Shown here piece by piece: positions 2,000-46,339 of a stretch of DNA of 47,280 bases. The stretch covers positions 1 through 47,280 of the IMG/VR virus record IMGVR_UViG_3300025316_000023. The stretch is one strand, 5' to 3'. The notes under the pieces are model-generated. The model was given only the letters and a program-made list of their open reading frames with translations, searched no databases and was not told where the DNA came from. Position numbers and translations under genes: made by a program. Numbering within the stretch: position 1 is the stretch's first letter; the number at the start of each line of letters is the position of its first letter. This DNA comes from a virus.

Positions 2000-4900
2000 T
2001 TATAATATAATGTAATCGCAAATCAATAAATCGTCAGCATCCGGAGCCCTGGCGAGTTTTATCTTTCCGTCCTCCTCGATGTAGTCCGCATCAGCACCCC
2101 TGAATTGCCGAACCCCGTTAACAAATACCCTTGCGCTCCCTGGCTTGAAAGCCTTATTTGTTGAAAATTGTATTCTTGTTCCGTTCGGAGCTTCAACCAG
2201 ACCATAGTCGGAGGTTGTTTCTTCGCTCGTTGTGGTATCTCCGACCGCTGGAATTGTGTCGGTCACGGCACTATGCTGAAATCGGATGTTATCCAATCCG
2301 AGGTCGATATTGTTTGGCCAGCTACCGACCAAGCTTATCTTGAAGCTGTCTAATGTTGCTCGTGAAGCCGCGAAGCTATACATGGGAATAGCGATCATTT
2401 GCCATTGGTCGCTGTCTGGTTTATAACTGAAAAGATTTGAAGAGGCTGAAATTGCAACACTTCCTGTTTGTGATGTTCCAAGGTACGATTCAATAAACAA
2501 CATGCTATTTGCCAACCACGGTATCGTACTCTTAATCTCTAATGTCAGGATACCATCCTTTACTACAACCGGTGTCCCGGTCGCAAAGGTCATCTTAGTT
2601 GCAGTTGGAGCGAATGTCGCTACTTGCCCGGGAAGTAGGGTAGTGTCATCAAACTCCCTTATTGCCCTGACGTAATAGTTATTGTTTTTTAGCCTGGAGT
2701 ATTCCACTCCGTTTTCAAAGTTGATACACCATGCCGAATTCCAAGCATTTTCTGAGGATGACCAATATGTTTTATTCAATAAATTCGTGACGACTTGCCT
2801 TCTGAAATGTAGAGTCAAAAGCTCTTTTATAGAAGGCAAAAACCAATCATCAAATCCATCTATAATTAACTCGTTACAAAATTTTGCAGCGAAACCAGAA
2901 GCATACTGATTAGCAAGCATTGTGTATGTATTGCTTCGGCCTGTGCCTATTAATTGCCCTGTTGCCCCTGTTGATATTGTCCCACTTCCAGAAATAGGGG
3001 AGTAAAATATGTTTACGGCAGTGTCTTCTTTTGCTACTATCAATCCCTTTTTACCTGTTTCGTCCAGATAAAAAATAACACCTCCCTCATAATTCTCTCC
3101 AATAAAATGTTTTGGTGTAGGAATCTCTGTGTTTGGTACCGTAAGTGCCACTTTTATTCGCTTTGCTCCTGTAGACGGTGTTTCGGTGGATGCAAAATCA
3201 ATAGTTATATGACTATCCTTTATTGCTGATGTAACCCACTCAACGTTTTCTGAATAAATGTTTTCAACGTTAATGTTTGACGGCGTAAGTGCTCCTGGTG
3301 CAAGAATCACCGTCATGAGTGCCAATTGCGTAGATGAAAGAATAGGGCTCGTTGGGTTGACGGCTGGTGTTCCTGTCGCTACTTGAAGATTTCCGAAAAC
3401 ATCCACGTAAAAAACATCAATTCTTGAAAGATTCGGATCTGCTGGTTGTAGGGTAATTTCTTTGTCTTGCGCCTGTAAAGGAACACCCATAATTTTATAG
3501 GTGAGGTCTTTCCCCGAATACTTTAGTCCTGACATCCATATTATAGAGCCGGTAAGCAGTTCTGTTTTTGTATCAGCATTGGCAGCCCCTATTCTGATCA
3601 GATACGCATTGAGGGCATCATTATCATTCGGTAATCCAGTAATCGAATTAAACGACGGCGAGTAATTGTTGAAAGTCTCTGTTAGATTAACGACTGCGGT
3701 TCCTGCTGATAATGCTGCACTTCTTGCTTCTGTAAGCTTTTGGATCGTATCAGAAATAGTAGATGTTATTTCCTTTTCCCATGCTTCGTCTTTGTAGTTA
3801 GATATTTCGGCAGTTATATCTGTCCCGTCCAATTTCGTTTTTAAGGCTGTTATTCGGATTTGTTTATCTATCCCTATAACTGAATCAACAATCCTCACAA
3901 CATCTCCAATGGCCAACTCTATGCCGTTATCCCGGATGTATCTCGCGTCTAGTTTCAGTGTGTATTTTACTCTGAGTTGAGAGTAATAATCCAGCCACTT
4001 TTGACCCATCGCTTTAAGCAAGTTTTCCGCTTCGGATATGTCCGCTTGTGGCATACTGATATCTATGAGCGTAAACTTGTCGCCTGTTGCTGGTGCATGA
4101 TCCTGCGAAGGGTATACCTCTACTCCTGAAGTAATAGTTTTTAACTTGAAAGTATTTGCTTCATCATTAAAAGTTACAATCTCAAATGTGATACCCATTA
4201 AGTCACCGCTCAAGAATATCAACTTCGCCGTGGTTCCTGATATCAATTGTGCATTTACATCAAAACCTATTAACGGGCAGGTGATGGTTAACTTATCTGT
4301 GGATACGTCACCTACTATTCCTGTAAATCGTGGATATATCCCTTCAAAAACAATCTTTTTTTCGACTACTTTATTATATTCTGATCTGTTCTCTAAATAA
4401 TGTGACCCGTCTGAATTCGTAAATATCAAACGGCTTTCGCCTCCCCGGTAATCGGTCGGAATATTCCGGGTCGATCCAAATACAAAAGCTCGTGTTGCAG
4501 TGTTTTGATCATCAACGGATTCTCTTGAAAGTTCATAGAGACCTTTGTTTTTCCCTAATTCAAACGTTAATGCAGTGGCGTTTGAGACTCGATCTAAAAT
4601 ATTTATTTGCTTATTATTAATACTCCATTCAGCTGCAAATTCTTTAGCTAACGTATCAAGTAACTCTTTCCCGTTTTGCCCGTCACAGTAAATATTATGC
4701 CATCCAGAATCTAAAACCGAGACAGTCCCTTTTGTCCATCCTGTATCAACGACATTGATATTCGCAATTATCAAATCTACAAAGTCAGAGCAACTACCGG
4801 TAAGGTAGAATTCCGACTTTCCATTGAGTTGTATTAATTTATCAAGAAGACGGTAGGCAGGGCTTTCGAACTGTACCTCATACTGATATTCGACTGCGGA

Positions 4901-8800: not shown

Positions 8801-10532
8801 AATAATCTCCATACTGACTAAGAATCGCGTCCTTTGCTTTTTTCCAGGCATCAGTTCCTTTTGCTGCATGGTTTAATTCTGCAAAAAGTTCAATAGCCTT
8901 GTCTTTTTCAATATCAATTTCACCGTTTGACTTGTTAATGGCCTTGGTAAGATCAGATTGATAATTATACCACTTGTACAACCCATAACAGATAGCCCCA
9001 ATAGCCGCTGCCATTAGCACATAGGGATTATTGAGCATTGTGGCATTGAGAAGCTTTTGAGCTGCTGCCCCTAATTCCTTGGCCTTGGTTGCCATTATTT
9101 CTGCCCCCGTTGTTTCCACTGTTGCAAGGGCAAGCTCTCTTTGAACCGCTACACCTTGAAGTCTTGCAACTTCAGCAGCCGTCTCACCTGCAACTACGGC
9201 TTCAGTTGTAATTCGTGTATTGATAACCGATTCAGCTGTAATTTCTTTTTCGACTATTGCATTGGCTTTTTTTGCAGCTATCCTTGCTTCTTCAACACCT
9301 TTTAATTCAGTTTGTAATATTATTTGTTGCTCCGTTGCGGTCATTGTTCCGGCCAATACAGCGGCGTTTGTCTCTTCAACAGTAATAGCATAAGCTCTTT
9401 CAAGGGCTATCAAGTCTGCTGTCAGAACCATGCTCGCGTCTTTTGCTGCCATTGTTACAGCATTGGCGGCGGCTCTTTCTGCTTCATTCGATAGCATTAA
9501 ATCTGTTGCTTCTTTTTCTGCCAATGAAGTTTTTACGGCGGCTGCTGTGGCTGCATCTTGTGCGATAGCTTCCTCGGTCAAGGCTAATTTCTTTGCCTCA
9601 ATAACTGCTATTTCAGTGGCCTTCATACCTGCGACTGCCATAGTTGCCAATCGATACAAGCCATAAATGGATATTAGACCTGTTACAACTTCTCCAATCT
9701 CTTTGTAATTAGCAATCATGGATGTCAGGCCGGATATACCGCCATAAATAAGGCCCTCGTTTGATTTACCAATATCATTCAGCATAACCTGCCACTTATC
9801 GGATAGGTTAGACATCTGACCTGTTACAGAGGCGTTTTGTTTTTGCATTAAATCATAAAACATTCCTCCCTGACTTGACATTGTCTTGAATGCATTCTCG
9901 ACCATTGGAAAGCTGATCTGCCCGGCTGTAATCATAGCAGTGATTTCTTCCGGCACCTTTCCCAGGTTCTTTGCTAATTCTGCGGCAAGTGGGATACCGG
10001 CCATTGCAAAATCCCTTAACTCCCGTTCCTGAAGCTTTCCTAATACTGCAACCTGCCCATAATTAATGGCAACCCTTGAAATAGGAACACTTACCCCGGC
10101 TGCAACATCTCCAAGGGCTTTCATAGTGCCCATCACTTTGTCAGTGGCTATTCCCATAGCCATTAGTTGCTTGATATTGGACGCAACGTCTGTTAGTGTG
10201 AAAGGAGTGGCTTGTGCAAATACAACGGCTTCCTGCATGAGTTTATCAGCCTTATCTTTGCTCCCAAGCATTGTTTCAAAAGCAATTCCAAGTTGCTGAA
10301 ATTCTCCACGGACAGCAATAATACTTTTACCCAACGCTCCAATAGAGGCTATTCCGGCTGCTGCACCAATCATAGCAAGCGAAGATCCTATCGCGCTCTC
10401 CATCCTGTTGCCTTCCGTTACAGCGGCATTACCAATTCCTCTAAGTATCTCCCGTGAACGGTCTGCGTCCGCCTGAAGTTGCCTGTTGTTTAGTCCTATC
10501 TGAAAGTTGATTGGTCCGTTATCGTTATTCAT
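5883..10532 (-). CDS. Tail tape measure protein
   Basis: 1549 residues, by far the longest gene, directly after the tail chaperones as in other siphoviruses. The N-terminal ~220 residues carry a tape-measure domain (GEFQQLGIAFETMLGSKDKA; FAQATPFTLTDVASNIKQLM; GKLQERELRDFAMAGIPLA). Then follow long Ala-, Glu- and Lys-rich helical and coiled-coil segments, with a hydrophobic membrane-like segment near residue 510 (LMAAAIGAICYGLYKW). In this family the protein sets tail length and is ejected with the DNA. At the usual rise per residue this would give a tail of very roughly 200 nm (inference). The start lies 1 nt after the stop of the frameshifted chaperone product. Confidence 0.95.
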   Translation of the reverse strand: MNNDNGPINFQIGLNNRQLQADADRSREILRGIGNAAVTEGNRMESAIGSSLAMIGAAAGIASIGALGKSIIAVRGEFQQLGIAFETMLGSKDKADKLMQEAVVFAQATPFTLTDVASNIKQLMAMGIATDKVMGTMKALGDVAAGVSVPISRVAINYGQVAVLGKLQERELRDFAMAGIPLAAELAKNLGKVPEEITAMITAGQISFPMVENAFKTMSSQGGMFYDLMQKQNASVTGQMSNLSDKWQVMLNDIGKSNEGLIYGGISGLTSMIANYKEIGEVVTGLISIYGLYRLATMAVAGMKATEIAVIEAKKLALTEEAIAQDAATAAAVKTSLAEKEATDLMLSNEAERAAANAVTMAAKDASMVLTADLIALERAYAITVEETNAAVLAGTMTATEQQIILQTELKGVEEARIAAKKANAIVEKEITAESVINTRITTEAVVAGETAAEVARLQGVAVQRELALATVETTGAEIMATKAKELGAAAQKLLNATMLNNPYVLMAAAIGAICYGLYKWYNYQSDLTKAINKSNGEIDIEKDKAIELFAELNHAAKGTDAWKKAKDAILSQYGDYLTEQQKELIGTKNQSEAQDAVNKGIEENIRLKVKNEALGDIIQKYDPRITAAVTNVKEAVKGSLGADRAANVGQEIAPLIANIKLSIDPEARKKAEDDFDVYMRKLQEEVTKKSSIWSTSVGKIGEARGEAERALEGWKDETLAATTAFNVAEKAAATTVKKDTFITADQQRLQLRKDLVSAEKELVSLQTKEYKVGVDKAPLTAISDQEAKIKGLKEQLGISDKNVAKEKKSAQEIADAKLKVTNDEIKSGLELQSAAQENQQALLNIKEDGFLKSQEQLKLNGEKEKTAEAKITQQLIEEQQKLERDKWDQSGKIGVFTPATKTASDLTPENKKRLTDQTDTYGIVSTAQSAKLIKDLLDQYQDFTAKKEAIDKKYNADLLALQSLPEGEGKNKAIAKLEEDWKNASSKLSLEDFQKSIDWAAIFGDLDNVSTTALNEFRAKVKQYLSSAGNSISKEDLKTVTESFNKLNDAISNRTPIKELISGYNDYKDACVKVAEAQSYLNDLTKFGGATTQDLADATANLTDAEKKKKESLTRISKDVEDVANKGQQLIGASRDVVSALGDLGISVDKNVSKALDGAGQMLDGASTFAKGMATGDVVSMISGGVKALAGVISVGTALFGDGSKVLSQGVIDYYDDLMATMKDVIAVHKALIAEFSGSAAVSEAEKATELINKQIEATRKLGLEYLDSRAAHSHSVGHNLQVSLDEYKSQLAAIGVNFSDSNGGIGQLFTMTPAQLEQIKEEVPGAWAKIDDQTRAYLQTIIDSKGAIDDTTKALGKALTDLSFDDAKSSLKSLLLSADTTMADIADNFEQYMRNAIVNALIAGQLDPLMKQWYVDFTTAMSDGILTDKEKTDLQAEYTAIGQTGINLRDNAYKAIGLDPASTSSTATSGKISASITEDTANELVGLWNRTALDIRETLNLSKASSGYLLNIAANTLRTADNTDRLSAMEISLKSIDQAVTKTASRF

Positions 10533-11219: not shown

Positions 11220-11239
11220 CTTGAATTTAAAGTTTTAGT

Positions 11240-11332
11240 TCTGATCCGGGAGTCGAACCCGGCCTTTTCAGTGGCATCTCAAGTTTATATGAGTTAATAG
11301 CCCGAATGAAAGTTCCCGTAAACTAAATCAGA
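11240..11332 (-). ncRNA. tRNA-like structure 1, between major tail and chaperone genes
   Basis: Minus sense. A perfect T-arm (stem CCGGG/CCCGG around loop TTCGACT, 11246-11262) is flanked by acceptor-like strands TCTGAT (11332-11327) and ATCAGA (11245-11240). After the 5' strand comes a D-arm-like hairpin AGTT-TACGGG-AACT. The remaining ~45 nt can form TTTCA/TGAAA, GGC/GCC and CTCA/TGAG stems but no normal 5-bp/7-nt anticodon arm. No CCA is encoded. It begins 7 nt after the major tail stop codon and ends 20 nt before the next ATG. The T-loop fits the tRNA consensus fully, and ACGGGA plus TTCGACT are also the most conserved parts of the tmRNA tRNA-like domain. A degenerate long-variable-arm tRNA is the alternative. 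Confidence 0.6.
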
Positions 11333-11338
11333 TCCTTC

Positions 11339-12028
11339 TTACGAAGCGGTATATTCCTTAAGAATATCACCTGTTGTAGGAACAAGACCTTCGAAAGTGT
11401 ACTTCAAGGTTTTCCCGTCTTTTGCAGCCCAAATTTCTTCCAGCTGAACCGACGTTCTGTCAATGACAAAACCTTCCATTGTGGGGTCTTCTGGTGTAAG
11501 GCGAACCATATAGTTTTGGCCAATGATACCATCAGAGTCAGCAATTGGCCTTGTCCATCCTTTCTTTACCCAAAGTTCACACTCAACGGTGTAGCCATTC
11601 TTGTCAAAACGAACATCAACCAAGCCGCCACCCTCTTCTTTGGCTTCTGTTTTTGCACCTTTGGTGGTGGTCAGCTTTGTACTGTCCTGCTTGATTGGGG
11701 TTAGTGTCACCCATGTTGCCTTCTCAACTGCTGCTGTTGGGGATACTCCTGCAGCTTCATATAAAATGGCTCCAATTGGAATAACGACTCCCATTGTTAC
11801 AGTGACAACATCCTTAAGCGGATCGGTAGAAACGACGGCGGTTGCAGCGAGAGATTTCTTTCCGTATCCGATTACGTCGCCAATGGCCACACCACTACCT
11901 TTTAGAATTTCGATAGTGGTATCAATTATTGCGACTGCTTTTGATAGTACATACCTCTTTTGTGGAGCTGCTCCTGCAATGTACGAGGCTACTTCTACTG
12001 TGGGTTTCCCCCATGATAATACTCCCAT
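11339..12028 (-). CDS. Major tail tube protein
   Basis: 229 residues (MGVLSWGKPTVEVASYIAGA...), Gly-, Val- and Thr-rich with alternating strands, located just upstream of the tail chaperones and downstream of the tail terminator, where siphoviruses encode the tube subunit. The internal stretch TTTKGAKTEAKEEGGGLVDV and the C-terminal RTSVQLEEIWAAKDGKTLKY are compatible with the beta-sandwich plus loop of tube proteins, but I see no diagnostic motif. It would be one of the most abundant phage proteins, which matters for the tRNA-like element that follows it directly. Confidence 0.75.
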   Translation of the reverse strand: MGVLSWGKPTVEVASYIAGAAPQKRYVLSKAVAIIDTTIEILKGSGVAIGDVIGYGKKSLAATAVVSTDPLKDVVTVTMGVVIPIGAILYEAAGVSPTAAVEKATWVTLTPIKQDSTKLTTTKGAKTEAKEEGGGLVDVRFDKNGYTVECELWVKKGWTRPIADSDGIIGQNYMVRLTPEDPTMEGFVIDRTSVQLEEIWAAKDGKTLKYTFEGLVPTTGDILKEYTAS

Positions 12029-16695: not shown

Positions 16696-17025
16696 ATGGA
16701 AATAACAATTAGGATAATGCTGGTCAATCGTTTTGTCCCAAGAGGCATCGAAGGATATAAAAAGAATCGTTCAATGAAACTGCCTGCTCATGCCAGATGC
16801 AATGATGAAGATGAGCTTAACCGGTTTGTCAAAACAATAAAGGTGATTGATAGGGATAGGCTCTCCCAGCAAATAGCTGTTGAAATAACCAAGATCAAAG
16901 CTACTGCCAACTTCCAGATTAAAAGAGATCCGGATTACGGTGACAAGTTCATTGGCAAAATTGATGTGTGGGAGTATTCCGATTGGAGCTTTGCCGTTTA
17001 CGTACCTGTTAAAGCCTTTAAATAA
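16696..17025 (+). CDS. Hypothetical protein next to DNA methyltransferase
   Basis: 109 residues from ATG 16696 (MEITIRIMLVNRFVPRGIEG...). An upstream start at 16648 would add 16 residues but overlap the small gene at 16583-16693 in another frame. Mixed alpha/beta, basic, with IKATANFQIKRDPDYGDK and an aromatic end (WEYSDWSFAVYVPVKAFK). Its stop overlaps the methyltransferase ATG (TAATG), so the two are co-translated. No motif recognised. Confidence 0.6.
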   Translation: MEITIRIMLVNRFVPRGIEGYKKNRSMKLPAHARCNDEDELNRFVKTIKVIDRDRLSQQIAVEITKIKATANFQIKRDPDYGDKFIGKIDVWEYSDWSFAVYVPVKAFK

Positions 17026-25665: not shown

Positions 25666-27060
25666 TTAAGCAGCTTTTTTGTATTTATTTATTATGGCCT
25701 TGACCGCATCCATCAAAGAGTCTTGTCCTTCAGCCTTTCCCTCAAGTGATAAAAACACTTTCTGATCGATGGTGGACACTGTAAGCAGGTGGTAAACGAT
25801 GACCGGTTTAATCTGCCCCTGACGATCCAAACGGGCATTGGCCTGTTGGTACAACTCAAGACTCCAATTGACTCCAAACCAAACGATGATATTACCTCCT
25901 GCTTGTAAGTTCAGCCCATGACCGGCACTGGCAGGATGGGCAAGAAGTAACTGGATCTTTCCTGCATTCCAATCAGCAATATCCGCGGAGTTCTCAAGCA
26001 TCCGGGGCTTATAACCTTTAAATCTCTTTTGGATACGTGCAAGATCGTGCTTGAAGGAATAGAACACCAACACTGGCTGACCATTGGCAGCTTCAACAAT
26101 TTCTTCAAGGGCCTCAAGTTTTTCATCATGTACAACATGGTAGTTTTTCTCAGCATCATAAATAGCTCCATTGGCAAACTGCCTTAACTTCGTTGAAAGT
26201 GCTGCAGCATTCACCGCTGAAACATCAGCATCAGAATCGATGATTGCAAGGACCTGTTCCTTTTCGAAAGTATCGTACTTCTCCTGAATAGCTTTTGGAA
26301 GTTTTACTTCATGCGTGATATTTATTCTTTCCGGAAGATCCAGGTAATCTTTTGTTTTCATCGAAATACAGATATCTCCAATCTTATCATAAATAACCTT
26401 GTCCATCTCATTTTTCAAATCATAATTAAAAACTACCTGGCCGTTTCGTTTACCGGGGGTGAAATACCTTTCACGATAGTTAGTAATTGTTTTGCCTAAA
26501 CGTGCCCCCTGGTCCAAGATGTACATTTGGCTCCACAAATCAATCAAACCATTGGGCGCAATCGTGCCGGTCAATCCAACTACACGCTTAATCATAGGCC
26601 GTACCATTCTCAGAGATTTGAATCTTATGGATTTTGCACTCTTGAAACTGGATAATTCATCGATAACTAAAAAATCGAAAGGAAAAGCACTTTGATAGTA
26701 TCCCACCAACCAAGCAACGTTTTCCCTGTTGATAATGTAAATATCGGCTTTGACTTTTAAAGCCTCTTTGCGCTCACGCTCGGTACCAAGGACAATAGAT
26801 GTCCGCAGGGATTTAAGATGATCCCACTTTGCAATTTCATCCGTCCAGGTCGACTCCGCTACACGCTTAGGCGCAATGATCAGAACCTTGCTAATTTCGC
26901 AATAATCAAACATCAACTTGTTAATCGCGGTAAGAGTTGAAATCGTTTTCCCTAAACCCATTTCTAACAATAACGCTGATTCAGGGTTGTTTATGATGTG
27001 CTCTACTGAAAACCTTTGGTATTCGTGGAGGTTACTTTCATTCAAAATTTTTACTGGCAT
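25666..27060 (-). CDS. SNF2-family helicase
   Basis: 464 residues from ATG 27060 (MPVKILNESNLHEYQRFSVE); a start at 27090 would add 10 residues and overlap the HNH gene more. Helicase motifs in order: LLLEMGLGKTISTL (Walker A), FLVIDELSSFK (motif II, DELS instead of DEAH), GLTGTIAPNGLIDLW (motif III), LLAHPASAGHGLNLQAGGN (motif V) and QANARLDRQGQIKPV (motif VI). Phage SNF2 proteins of this compact type usually lie in replication modules and remodel or translocate on dsDNA. Here it is the last gene before packaging. Confidence 0.9.
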   Translation of the reverse strand: MPVKILNESNLHEYQRFSVEHIINNPESALLLEMGLGKTISTLTAINKLMFDYCEISKVLIIAPKRVAESTWTDEIAKWDHLKSLRTSIVLGTERERKEALKVKADIYIINRENVAWLVGYYQSAFPFDFLVIDELSSFKSAKSIRFKSLRMVRPMIKRVVGLTGTIAPNGLIDLWSQMYILDQGARLGKTITNYRERYFTPGKRNGQVVFNYDLKNEMDKVIYDKIGDICISMKTKDYLDLPERINITHEVKLPKAIQEKYDTFEKEQVLAIIDSDADVSAVNAAALSTKLRQFANGAIYDAEKNYHVVHDEKLEALEEIVEAANGQPVLVFYSFKHDLARIQKRFKGYKPRMLENSADIADWNAGKIQLLLAHPASAGHGLNLQAGGNIIVWFGVNWSLELYQQANARLDRQGQIKPVIVYHLLTVSTIDQKVFLSLEGKAEGQDSLMDAVKAIINKYKKAA

Positions 27061-35354: not shown

Positions 35355-36595
35355 TGTGCAACTACCTCCTTTTTCTCTTCTATTAGCCAAATACTCAAAC
35401 GATCCATTTCCTCCTGAAATACTTTAGCAAGACCAAACATTCCGTTTTGTTTCGCGTGTTCAATGTTTTCAAGGTTCAACTCCCTACGGGCAAGTACTTC
35501 GTTATCTTTATCCCTCATATTTTTTGAGTTAAGAAAAAACGTGCTTTTAGGGTTTCCAAGTTCTTTTGAGGGGGTGTAAGGTTCGATCTTTGCCGATGAT
35601 GGGTAGTTAATTCTTACCTTGTTCTCAACATCAATAGCAGCAATAAACATGAAGGTTATAGACCCTTTGCCTGTCGGGATCGTCACCTCTCCGGAGTCGG
35701 TAATATTCACGTTCGCTGCGCTCAAAGCGGCAATAGTTTTTTCTTTATCGGTAGCTGATAAAACGTAACGATTTTGTTTTACGTAGAATTTACCTTTGTG
35801 AGAATCTGAAATAGTCATTGACCTTCTGGCATCAGAGGTTCTATCTTCCTTTTCCTCTTTGATTTCTACCCCCGGATTATTAGCCACGATCACGGCGTTG
35901 ATTTGTGATAAAGCGCTCAGTAAGTTTAGTTTTTCGTTGGCAATATCCTCCGCCTGTTTCTTCATTTTTGGAGTCATCGGCTTTGCTAAATTTCTCTTTG
36001 TCTGCAAGGGTATAGCTCTCCACGGCTTTACGATCTCCGTAGTCAGTATATTATAAGGGGTCAAAATCATAGCTGTATTTGTTACCATCTTTACGTTGAT
36101 ACACAGGAATTCACAGCTTTTTGATCTGAGTAGCATAGCGGGCGCATTTAAAGAGGTGAGAAATATTTCAGGTATTTCTTCAACCGACTCGAACAAGGAT
36201 ATTGCTTTTTTGAGCTGGCAGGTGTGAAACAGTAAGTCTTCAATTTTAAGGCAAACCACGTGTTTTATTCTTTCTCCTATTGGAGCTTTAATAATGGCTT
36301 CCCAGGTATTGTCTGGCGCTGGTCTAAGCCGCTCTGACTTGCACGCGATTTTTAAGACCGCTTCAACATTAGAGAATGATTTTCCGCGGTTTATTTCTTT
36401 GTGGTCTTTTCCTACGCTAATCCCCTCTAAATCGAAGTCATACTCTTCGTAATGTACCCGGGCACACACATAGTTATCAGTTGCGTACAGATATCCGTTT
36501 TCGTGTAAAATACCCAATCCACGGGAATTGATACTATCGTCTTTCTCTTGTAAGGCACAGCCGTATAATGCCTTGTAAACATTTTCTATTTTCAT
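35351..36595 (-). CDS. Replication-module protein, N-terminal part sliding-clamp-like
   Basis: 414 residues. The first ~190 recall bacterial beta-clamp domains: ILHENGYLYATDNYVCARV early, and CQLKKAISLFESVEEIPEIF followed by LTSLNAPAMLLRSKSCEFLC, which mimics the clamp pattern of a helix, strand, Pro-Leu and a final strand. A central helical region (KPMTPKMKKQAEDIANEKLN) and a C-terminal region with NYPSSAKIEPYTPSKELGNP follow. Position directly upstream of DNA polymerase, with an ATGA overlap, supports a processivity role. The clamp idea is an inference from a weak pattern. Confidence 0.5.
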   Translation of the reverse strand: MKIENVYKALYGCALQEKDDSINSRGLGILHENGYLYATDNYVCARVHYEEYDFDLEGISVGKDHKEINRGKSFSNVEAVLKIACKSERLRPAPDNTWEAIIKAPIGERIKHVVCLKIEDLLFHTCQLKKAISLFESVEEIPEIFLTSLNAPAMLLRSKSCEFLCINVKMVTNTAMILTPYNILTTEIVKPWRAIPLQTKRNLAKPMTPKMKKQAEDIANEKLNLLSALSQINAVIVANNPGVEIKEEKEDRTSDARRSMTISDSHKGKFYVKQNRYVLSATDKEKTIAALSAANVNITDSGEVTIPTGKGSITFMFIAAIDVENKVRINYPSSAKIEPYTPSKELGNPKSTFFLNSKNMRDKDNEVLARRELNLENIEHAKQNGMFGLAKVFQEEMDRLSIWLIEEKKEVVAQ

Positions 36596-36777
36596 GATAT
36601 GTAAGTGATTATAAGATTGTTCTTATTGTGACCTCTTTGGATATACTCTTTCTTAAGCCCCTGAAGTATAGGGAAGGGCTTGTTATTCTCAAGCACTCTG
36701 GCTTCACGTCCGGGTACAAGCTCTATAAGCTTACCCATCTTCTTTGTTTTTGTTGGAGCAGCAGGAAGGTTAAACAT
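36592..36777 (-). CDS. Small hypothetical protein
   Basis: 61 residues from ATG 36777 (MFNLPAAPTKTKKMGKLIEL...), basic. A longer start at 36849 would translate through the tRNA-like element and is rejected. Its stop overlaps the next ATG (ATGA). It is a small protein between ssDNA-binding protein and clamp-like protein; function unknown. Confidence 0.6.
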   Translation of the reverse strand: MFNLPAAPTKTKKMGKLIELVPGREARVLENNKPFPILQGLKKEYIQRGHNKNNLIITYIS

Positions 36778-36801
36778 GATTTTAAGTATTTGGAGTTTAG
36801 A

Positions 36802-36852
36802 AGTGTGAAGGGGAGTCGAACCCCTAAAGACAGTCCCGTAGACCTTCACACT
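36802..36852 (-). ncRNA. tRNA-like structure 2, anticodon arm missing
   Basis: Minus sense. Perfect 7-bp acceptor AGTGTGA/TCACACT (36852-36846 with 36808-36802; an eighth A-T pair can be added), coaxial with a perfect 5-bp T-arm AGGGG/CCCCT carrying loop TTCGACT. Between them is a D-like hairpin GGTC-TACGG-GACT and a 6-nt link; there is no anticodon arm. Total 51 nt. It shares TACGGGA and TTCGACT with structure 1. It lies between the ssDNA-binding protein gene and the next start codon, 24 nt before that ATG. The acceptor/T-arm stack is the minimal substrate of RNase P and RNase Z, so processing of the mRNA here is plausible. Confidence 0.65.
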
Positions 36853-36881
36853 TTCAGATTAATCAACCTATAAGTTGATTT

Positions 36882-37445
36882 CTACATCAGATCGTCATCG
36901 TCTGCACTGGCAGCACCTCCGAAGTCAGCTTCAGCGGTTGCCCTGCCTCCAAGTGAATCACCGTCTTTGAGCTTCTGAAGGTTATTCAGTCCACAGGCAA
37001 TACCTTTGTTTCCGCTGGTGTTGAAAGCGTAGAATGTGATTGAAGCGCGGCCATAACAGCCAGAGTACAATTCATCCTGATCAAGGATCGGCTGAACGTT
37101 TTTGTCAACAAGACCAGGTTTGGTTTTGCAGTTTGCATTCAGGAAGAACGAATCTTCGTAACTTTCATCTTCAGGGCGTTCCACGTCACCATCTCTTAAC
37201 GGAGTCTTCAGAGTTGCAGGAACTTTACCTCCGAACTTCGCCTTGCCTGCTTCCTTCGCGGCTTCGATAGCTTTCTTTACAGCTGTTAAGGTTGCTTTGT
37301 CCGACTTCGGGATGATAAGAGATACTGAGTATTTCTTTTCCTGACCTTCTTCTACTGCTGAAGGTTCCCACACGTGCAGGTAACTAAATCTTACTTTACC
37401 TGTCACCACTTTTGTCAATTGAACATCATTCATTTCGATAAGCAT
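36882..37445 (-). CDS. Single-stranded DNA-binding protein, DUF2815 type
   Basis: 187 residues. It contains VTGKVRFSYLHVWEPSA, KKYSVSLIIPKSDKATLTAV, SFFLNANCKTKPGLVDK and YSGCYGRASITFYAFN, the pattern of DUF2815 phage ssDNA-binding proteins, with a Gly/Ala-rich linker and acidic tail ending DDDDLM as in SSBs that recruit partners through the C-terminus. Directly downstream of the DUF2800 nuclease with a one-base TAATG-type overlap. Needed in high copy, which fits a stabilising element after its gene. Confidence 0.85.
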   Translation of the reverse strand: MLIEMNDVQLTKVVTGKVRFSYLHVWEPSAVEEGQEKKYSVSLIIPKSDKATLTAVKKAIEAAKEAGKAKFGGKVPATLKTPLRDGDVERPEDESYEDSFFLNANCKTKPGLVDKNVQPILDQDELYSGCYGRASITFYAFNTSGNKGIACGLNNLQKLKDGDSLGGRATAEADFGGAASADDDDLM

Positions 37446-45938: not shown

Positions 45939-46121
45939 GCCAAAAACCTAGAGAAAGAAAGGGGAGTGAGTGGCTTCCCGATCTTTCTTGAGAAGAATGA
46001 AACTCTAAAAAACAGTTCCTCAATTCTTGTTTAAAATTCATCTTTTCTTCCGTTGTTCTCCAATAGTTTCACAAAAAATAAATTCAAATTTTATAAATCG
46101 TTTATCCTTAACGGTTTAGAT
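45939..46121 (+). other. Non-coding stretch with one hairpin
   Basis: Together with what follows, 45939-46426 has no convincing gene. An imperfect stem AAGAAAG/CTTTCTT with inner GGGA/TCCC is found at 45955-45989 without a T run; the rest is AT-rich and shows nothing I can name. Confidence 0.4.
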
Positions 46122-46178
46122 GCCTCAAAATGGAAGTTTCCTAAACTTTAGATTCGCGTTCGAGTCGCGGTGAGGCTA
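46122..46178 (+). ncRNA. tRNA-like structure 3, D-arm missing, anticodon CCU
   Basis: Acceptor-like GCCTCA/TGAGGC (46122-46127 with 46171-46176), a 5-bp anticodon stem GAAGT/ACTTT with 7-nt loop TTCCTAA (anticodon CCT at 46140-46142, preceded by T33), a 4-nt variable region, and a T-arm TCGCG/CGCGG with loop TTCGAGT. Only ATG lies where the D-arm should be. Discriminator A, no CCA. It may be a decayed tRNA-Arg, a functional armless tRNA-like RNA, or the 3' half of a tRNA gene carried as an attachment site. A perfect hairpin follows 2 nt later. Confidence 0.5.
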
Positions 46179-46179
46179 C

Positions 46180-46210
46180 AAAGTGCCAGGGTTTTAGACC
46201 CTGGCACTTT
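46180..46210. terminator. Strong hairpin after the tRNA-like element
   Basis: Perfect 13-bp stem AAAGTGCCAGGGT/ACCCTGGCACTTT with a 5-nt loop, followed by GATTTT. A-rich before and T-rich after, so a terminator (possibly in both directions), though the T run is short. Confidence 0.65.
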
Positions 46211-46339
46211 GATTTTCAGATAGCTCCATTTTGAAAATATCAAGTGTGATCACAGTAGGGTTTATATTACCACCTAAGATACCAGAAAATGGCACCAAAG
46301 AAATGAAAAGCACTGCTATTAATTGGGAATTCTTTCTAA

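Follow-up and report, generated by a model that had tools for sequence, protein, structure and literature searches.

Why should a phage carry, between two protein-coding genes of what appears to be a single operon, an RNA structure that resembles a tRNA but lacks the anticodon arm? The question is raised by a 51-nt element in the virus record IMGVR_UViG_3300025316_000023, all 47,280 nucleotides of which were analysed and are referred to here as the window. The phage is of the siphophage type, encoding a terminase, portal, major head protein, tape measure, family A polymerase and primase/helicase.

An anticodon-less tRNA-like element behind the SSB gene

The original prediction was of a tRNA mimic without an anticodon arm in the gap behind the gene for a ssDNA-binding protein (SSB). 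Such an element is indeed present at 36802 to 36852, on the minus strand, where it reads (from 36852 to 36802) AGTGTGA AGGTCTACGGGACTGTCTTT AGGGG TTCGACT CCCCT TCACACT. The acceptor 5' strand AGTGTGA (36846 to 36852) pairs with TCACACT over 7 bp, extendable to 8-9, and the T-arm, AGGGG-TTCGACT-CCCCT (36809 to 36825), has a perfect stem of 5 bp, in agreement with the 7-8-bp acceptor and 5-bp T-arm first described. The T-arm contains the G53:C61 pair, the loop consensus T54 T55 C56 R57 A58 and T60. Between these two parts lie a D-like hairpin, GGTC-TACGG-GACT (36832 to 36844), with a stem of 4 bp of which one is G.U, and, where a tRNA has an anticodon arm with a 5-bp stem and 7-nt loop, a linker of only 6 nt (36826 to 36831). 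The acceptor 3' strand is followed by TCTA (together 36798 to 36808), which supplies a discriminator and C74, not CCA, in the manner of Bacteroidota tRNA genes.

The gene upstream (36882 to 37445, minus strand) encodes an Enc34/gp2.5-type SSB (PF10991 at 267 bits; phrog_112), and its stop codon is 29 nt from the element. A further 24 nt separate the element from an ATG at 36777, the likely start of a small gene (36592 to 36777, minus strand) that is followed by other replication genes; in many relatives the DNA polymerase gene comes directly after the gap. The spacer on the SSB side holds a weak hairpin, AATCAAC-TTATAG-GTTGATT (36861 to 36880, minus strand), which is confined to the window and absent from the two closest relatives, L002 and L128.

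Both of these relatives carry homologous copies. In that of L002, whose SSB is 95% identical, changes are confined to the D-loop, the linker and the base that follows the acceptor. In L128, a Bacteroidetes MAG contig whose SSB is 81% identical to that of the window, the acceptor reads AGCGTGA...TCACGCT, a compensatory double change of the third pair from T-A to C-G, and the T-stem has acquired one G-U. The four D-like pairs are invariant in the three homologues while the loop changes to TTCGG, and the spacers between SSB stop and element are wholly different (29, 10 and 12 nt in the window, L002 and L128, respectively). Pairing is thus kept in relatives, the check proposed for the suggested selection on structure; one double change among three homologues is not significant alone, and this covariation is suggestive support for selection on pairing. 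A DNA-pattern search for more members of the 51-nt class returned only the contig of L002 and one unrelated element, in L041.

A second proposed check concerned translation. In the window a GTG-started frame crosses the element and would extend the downstream gene to 36849. This extension is unsupported, and is ruled out by L128, where a homologue of the small gene (64% identity) is preceded by a stop codon between the element and its ATG.

The predicted stability of the 51-nt element corresponds to z = -2.9. In all three close homologues the nearest-neighbour minimum free energy (MFE) structure is a longer, alternative hairpin of 11 bp, better than the tRNA-like fold by 0.7-2.5 kcal/mol; the energy model omits the tertiary contacts between D-loop and T-loop.

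Comparison with known RNA families places the element close to, but outside, those that have been described. The tRNA model RF00005 gives no match over the Rfam gathering cut-off for the 51-nt element, and only the T-arm of the L002 copy is recognized, at 11.4 bits, whereas the elements of other lineages score 31-52 bits. The special link to tmRNA that had been proposed did not hold up: RF00023 matches the T-arm only (model positions 347-363; 11-14 bits, cut-off 47), as would be expected of any tRNA, so that the link is weak. Element and tmRNA have the T-arm sequence and the loss of the anticodon arm in common, but the element is without a tag reading frame, pseudoknots or a full-length match. 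Its only full-length match to a tRNA-like Rfam model on that strand is to the mascRNA-menRNA family (RF01684), which at 18.3 bits against a cut-off of 42.5 is a likeness of architecture, not membership, with no homology implied. A microRNA hairpin model also finds the long inverted repeat, on either strand, with a score no better than chance. An intrinsic terminator, i.e. a G+C-rich hairpin with a U-run, was also considered and rejected, the element being followed by CTAAACTCC, with no U-run. The open-licence literature searched yielded no description of anything equivalent in phages.

Recurrence in SSB gaps of Bacteroidota-type phages

With SSB as the anchor, 193 distinct 3' gaps were collected from viral and genome contigs and isolate phages, and were scanned with two requirements only, a T-arm whose loop is TTCRA-like and an acceptor that matches. 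A tRNA-like element was found in the sense orientation in 26 of the 193 gaps and in the antisense orientation in 1. Shuffling all gaps gave about 0.1 (1 in ten rounds), the body of the SSB gene 0, and the region 0.8-1.2 kb downstream of SSB 0 of 185. Several further, more degenerate gap elements (L238, L244, L091, L270 and L275) were recognized by eye. In many loci the element ends some 19-28 nt before the next ATG, and several carriers have a hairpin and an element in series (stop, hairpin, element, approximately 22 nt, ATG). Relatives without an element often have an intrinsic terminator at the same place (L004, L005, L009, L022 and others), and isolate phages of Phocaeicola, Parabacteroides and Bacteroides have a plain hairpin in the SSB gap, partly without a U-run.

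All 26 carriers are Shine-Dalgarno-poor phages of Bacteroidota type, near-absence of Shine-Dalgarno sequences being a mark of that phylum: such a sequence precedes 5 of 162 starts in element-carrying phages, compared with 349 of 1204 in other loci. The named hosts are Croceibacter (C. atlanticus HTCC2559, in culture together with phage P2559Y, whose element lies at approximately 26696-26782 of its record in an SSB gap that is unannotated there) and two Bacteroidetes/Bacteroidales assemblies. A search for prophage copies in Bacteroidota genomes found SSB relatives only in the two start genomes among the 395 drawn. Across the whole contigs of carriers, 19 of 20 Rfam tRNA matches over the cut-off fall in the SSB gap (17) or the tail gap discussed below (2); because the presence of a gap element was the criterion by which these contigs were selected, 17 of 20 shows that they contain few other tRNAs and is not independent enrichment. 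The contigs of eight terminator-type relatives gave no Rfam tRNA match over the cut-off.

What is retained among 31 elements, a set that includes related copies, is the top half of a tRNA. The G53:C61 pair is present in 31 of 31 and T60 in 30 of 31, although neither was demanded by the scanner. Nor was a D-arm, and yet 19 of 31 have a 4-bp D-stem with GG in the loop, where 3.6 would be expected. Only 4 have a canonical anticodon arm (1.7 expected), i.e. near chance, and the segment from D to T ranges from about 5 to 102 nt, a few values being uncertain on account of an ambiguous D-stem. Short elements other than that of the window include those of L064 (56 nt) and L138 (46 nt). The sequences themselves are widely different, with T-loop, G53:C61, T60, D-arm and C74 trailer the features that persist. 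A covariation count over the top half of 27 sequences gave 142 double-changed cells, a value reached in 0 of 500 shuffles, but it is biased because the scanner required pairing. Many of the gap elements are reported by ARAGORN as tRNA-??? with odd anticodons, or are missed; apparently capable of decoding are only those of L072 (Ser GCT) and L053 (Met CAT) and the second element of L240.

At the 3' end, the discriminator is followed by C in 25 of 31 elements (P = 5e-13 against gap composition, a value that, like the others of its kind, overstates independence owing to the related copies), and after C74 comes W-A in 20 of 31, with an encoded CCA in 1; C74 is missing from L128 and from a 46-nt class. 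Cellular tRNA genes of Bacteroidota (L323-L352; three genomes sampled) have C74 in 44 of 44 cases and an encoded CCA in 3 of 44. To judge from their sequences, the elements end as host tRNA genes do, with the same unpaired mark. Among the sequence hints that they may be handled by the tRNA 3'-maturation machinery this is the strongest, and common descent from tRNA genes could be an alternative source of the same trailer.

A second gap in the window shows the same phenomenon. At 11239 to 11333 (minus strand) a 95-nt tRNA-like element, read by ARAGORN as tRNA-Asn(att), lies behind the gene (11339 to 12028, minus strand; phrog_17745) that from its location between the genes for the major head protein and the tape measure is presumed to encode the major tail protein, and ahead of the presumed tail chaperone and tape-measure genes. 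It was correctly noted at the outset that this element has both signature loops, TTCGACT and TACGGGA, in common with the 51-nt element while the stems differ. In L038 (82%) the element persists, its T-stem bearing a compensatory change from C-G to A-T. The corresponding gap of L039/L040 (51%) holds a terminator followed by a different tRNA-like element. A search for more tail-gap relatives came to only four loci, none of them in GenBank phages. Judged by the type of protein encoded, SSB and tail gaps would both be junctions of an abundant with a scarce product.

Possible role as a mark between messages

Taken together, these observations suggest that in many Bacteroidota-type phages a codon-blind RNA, equivalent to the top half of a tRNA, is placed behind the SSB gene and is probably a cutting or end mark between genes. 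More specifically, we consider it somewhat better than an even chance (roughly 0.55) that the element acts in cis as tRNA punctuation, with host RNase P and/or RNase Z separating the SSB mRNA from the next message. The element would be transcribed within a polycistronic replication mRNA, to judge from gene order, and would fold into an acceptor stacked on the T-arm, with a D-arm and elbow. Host tRNA-maturation enzymes, which the original prediction had named among possible partners and which remain plausible ones, would then recognize it, RNase P at the 5' end and/or RNase Z, 3' trimming and the CCA machinery at the 3' end. Cutting or capping would provide the SSB message with its own 3' end and leave the next gene a leader of about 20-25 nt, uncoupling abundant SSB from scarcer downstream products. 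The anticodon half would be dispensable, and its loss or replacement has been repeated: with the anticodon arm near chance, the part of a tRNA that RNase P, RNase Z and the CCA enzyme recognize has been retained, and the decoding part has not.

Precedents come from several directions. The mascRNA and menRNA of MALAT1 and MEN-beta are tRNA-like 3'-processing elements at which RNase P defines the end of the RNA. They are likewise small, with a perfect acceptor and T-arm and a reduced or absent anticodon arm, but the element described here belongs to a phage of bacteria, separates two protein-coding genes within an operon and has no triple helix. In plant mitochondria (t-elements) and in mitochondrial tRNA punctuation more generally, tRNAs or tRNA-like elements placed between the genes of a polycistronic RNA show RNase P and RNase Z where the mRNAs end. 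Here too a tRNA-like fold lies at a gene junction within one presumptive transcript, but in dsDNA phages instead of organelles, and at a specific site behind the SSB gene. Acceptor plus T-arm mini-substrates are classical substrates of RNase P. The SSB of phage T4 is the product of gene 32. The substrates of RNase P include phage M3 RNA, the C4 antisense RNA of P1/P7 and the T4 gene 32 mRNA (PMC11143913). These are also phage RNAs, but they differ in RNA and phage and are without a recurrent anticodon-less tRNA element. Finally, ordinary phage tRNA genes have the acceptor, D-arm, T-arm and C74 trailer in common with the gap elements, and some gaps hold complete tRNAs; most gap elements, however, are without a canonical anticodon arm and occur singly in a fixed mRNA gap, not in a tRNA cluster.

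The punctuation reading thus draws on gap position, conserved form, the C74 signature, compensatory changes, the terminators or hairpins that take the same place in relatives, and the RNase P precedent. It is weakened by the MFE preference for another hairpin, the thinness of the 51-nt class, the lack of C74 in L128 and the 46-nt class, and the decoding-capable tRNAs in a few gaps. If it is correct, phages that infect a major phylum of gut, soil and marine bacteria would have a general way of setting the ratios of neighbouring products, with host tRNA enzymes doing the work of a terminator, and tRNA punctuation, familiar from organelles, would extend to dsDNA viruses. It would also explain a class of odd 'tRNA-???' and pseudo-tRNA calls in phage annotation, and make available a large number of natural minimal substrates of 46-58 nt for the two RNases. 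A bolder version, which we put forward only tentatively, is that the elements form a family of anticodon-less mimics, unrelated in sequence, that have evolved repeatedly, are excised by both host RNase P and RNase Z so that SSB and tail messages acquire defined ends, and persist as stable tRNA-like small RNAs, maybe with a second role.

Among the rival explanations, the one that fares best, although we think it unlikely, is that of a purely structural barrier, a compact fold that stands in for a terminator by blocking 3' exonucleases, bringing about partial termination or insulating translation, but is not cut as a tRNA. The terminators and plain hairpins in the same gap of other relatives would fit this, as would the 11-bp hairpin of lowest computed energy and the distance of some 20-25 nt to the next ATG in many loci, which is just outside the ribosome footprint. 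A mere barrier, however, would have no need of the T-loop consensus, the G53:C61 pair, T60, a D-loop with GG or an unpaired C74, which all persist in sequences that are unrelated, and the U-run of a terminator is absent. Less probable again is a small RNA acting in trans, in which the released mimic would occupy a tRNA-binding factor (SmpB, EF-Tu or a tRNA-cutting defence nuclease) or offer a decoy tail substrate. Retention of the elbow and 3' end with loss of the anticodon would suit such an RNA, and some bacterial defences do target tRNA tails, as described for Cas12a3 (PMC12851939). Against it, the constant location after SSB and ahead of the following gene, filled by terminators in relatives, points to a role in cis, there is no selection on one shared sequence, and the tmRNA model recognizes the T-arm alone.

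It is slightly more doubtful still that the elements are decaying phage tRNA genes located by chance in a tolerant gap. Plausible anticodons in L072, L053 and the second element of L240, and the tandem arrangement of three elements in L070, are what decay might leave behind, but it would hardly maintain acceptor and T-stems by compensatory changes while the flanking spacers diverge with indels, or remove the anticodon arm in most carriers with the top half intact. Chance inverted repeats, or a coding part of the 36592 gene as the GTG-started frame might suggest, have already been refuted by the scanner controls, by the compensatory acceptor pair kept in relatives and by the stop codon in L128, and the 51-nt element is neither chance nor coding.

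Further RNA elements in the window and related contigs

A third tRNA-like element in the window, at 46121 to 46178 on the plus strand, consists of one short hairpin and a T-arm and matches the Rfam tRNA model at 29 bits, at the cut-off. Directly after it, downstream of rightward genes, is a strong 15-bp inverted repeat (approximately 46179-46211), a candidate attP site or terminator. The element found by pattern search in L041 (approximately 3540-3607, plus strand, of the 144-kb contig IMGVR_UViG_3300033463_000023) has a 6-bp stem with a 4-nt loop in the anticodon position, and lies directly behind a gene for a 343-aa protein without a Pfam or PHROG match. The three tandem elements of L070 occupy 3555-3993 (plus strand) of one SSB gap; ARAGORN calls one as Ile(tat) and one as tRNA-???, and misses the third.

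L230 (IMGVR_UViG_3300032373_000042), a relative of Croceibacter phage P2559Y, encodes a permuted tmRNA at 174-539 on the minus strand, identified by ARAGORN as tmRNA* with the tag AKVITPSFTQLRAVA* and by Rfam as tmRNA_permuted (RF04321; 64.9 bits, cut-off 47); in the stretch of P2559Y examined, ARAGORN found no tmRNA. The phage contig L219 contains a DUF805b RNA motif (RF02914, 40.3 bits) at 9251-9283 on the plus strand. In L216 (IMGVR_UViG_3300002037_000001), a Pistol ribozyme scoring 64.5 bits is located at 16861-16925 on the plus strand, and would be a second RNA-cleaving device of this phage beside the tRNA-like element behind its SSB gene.
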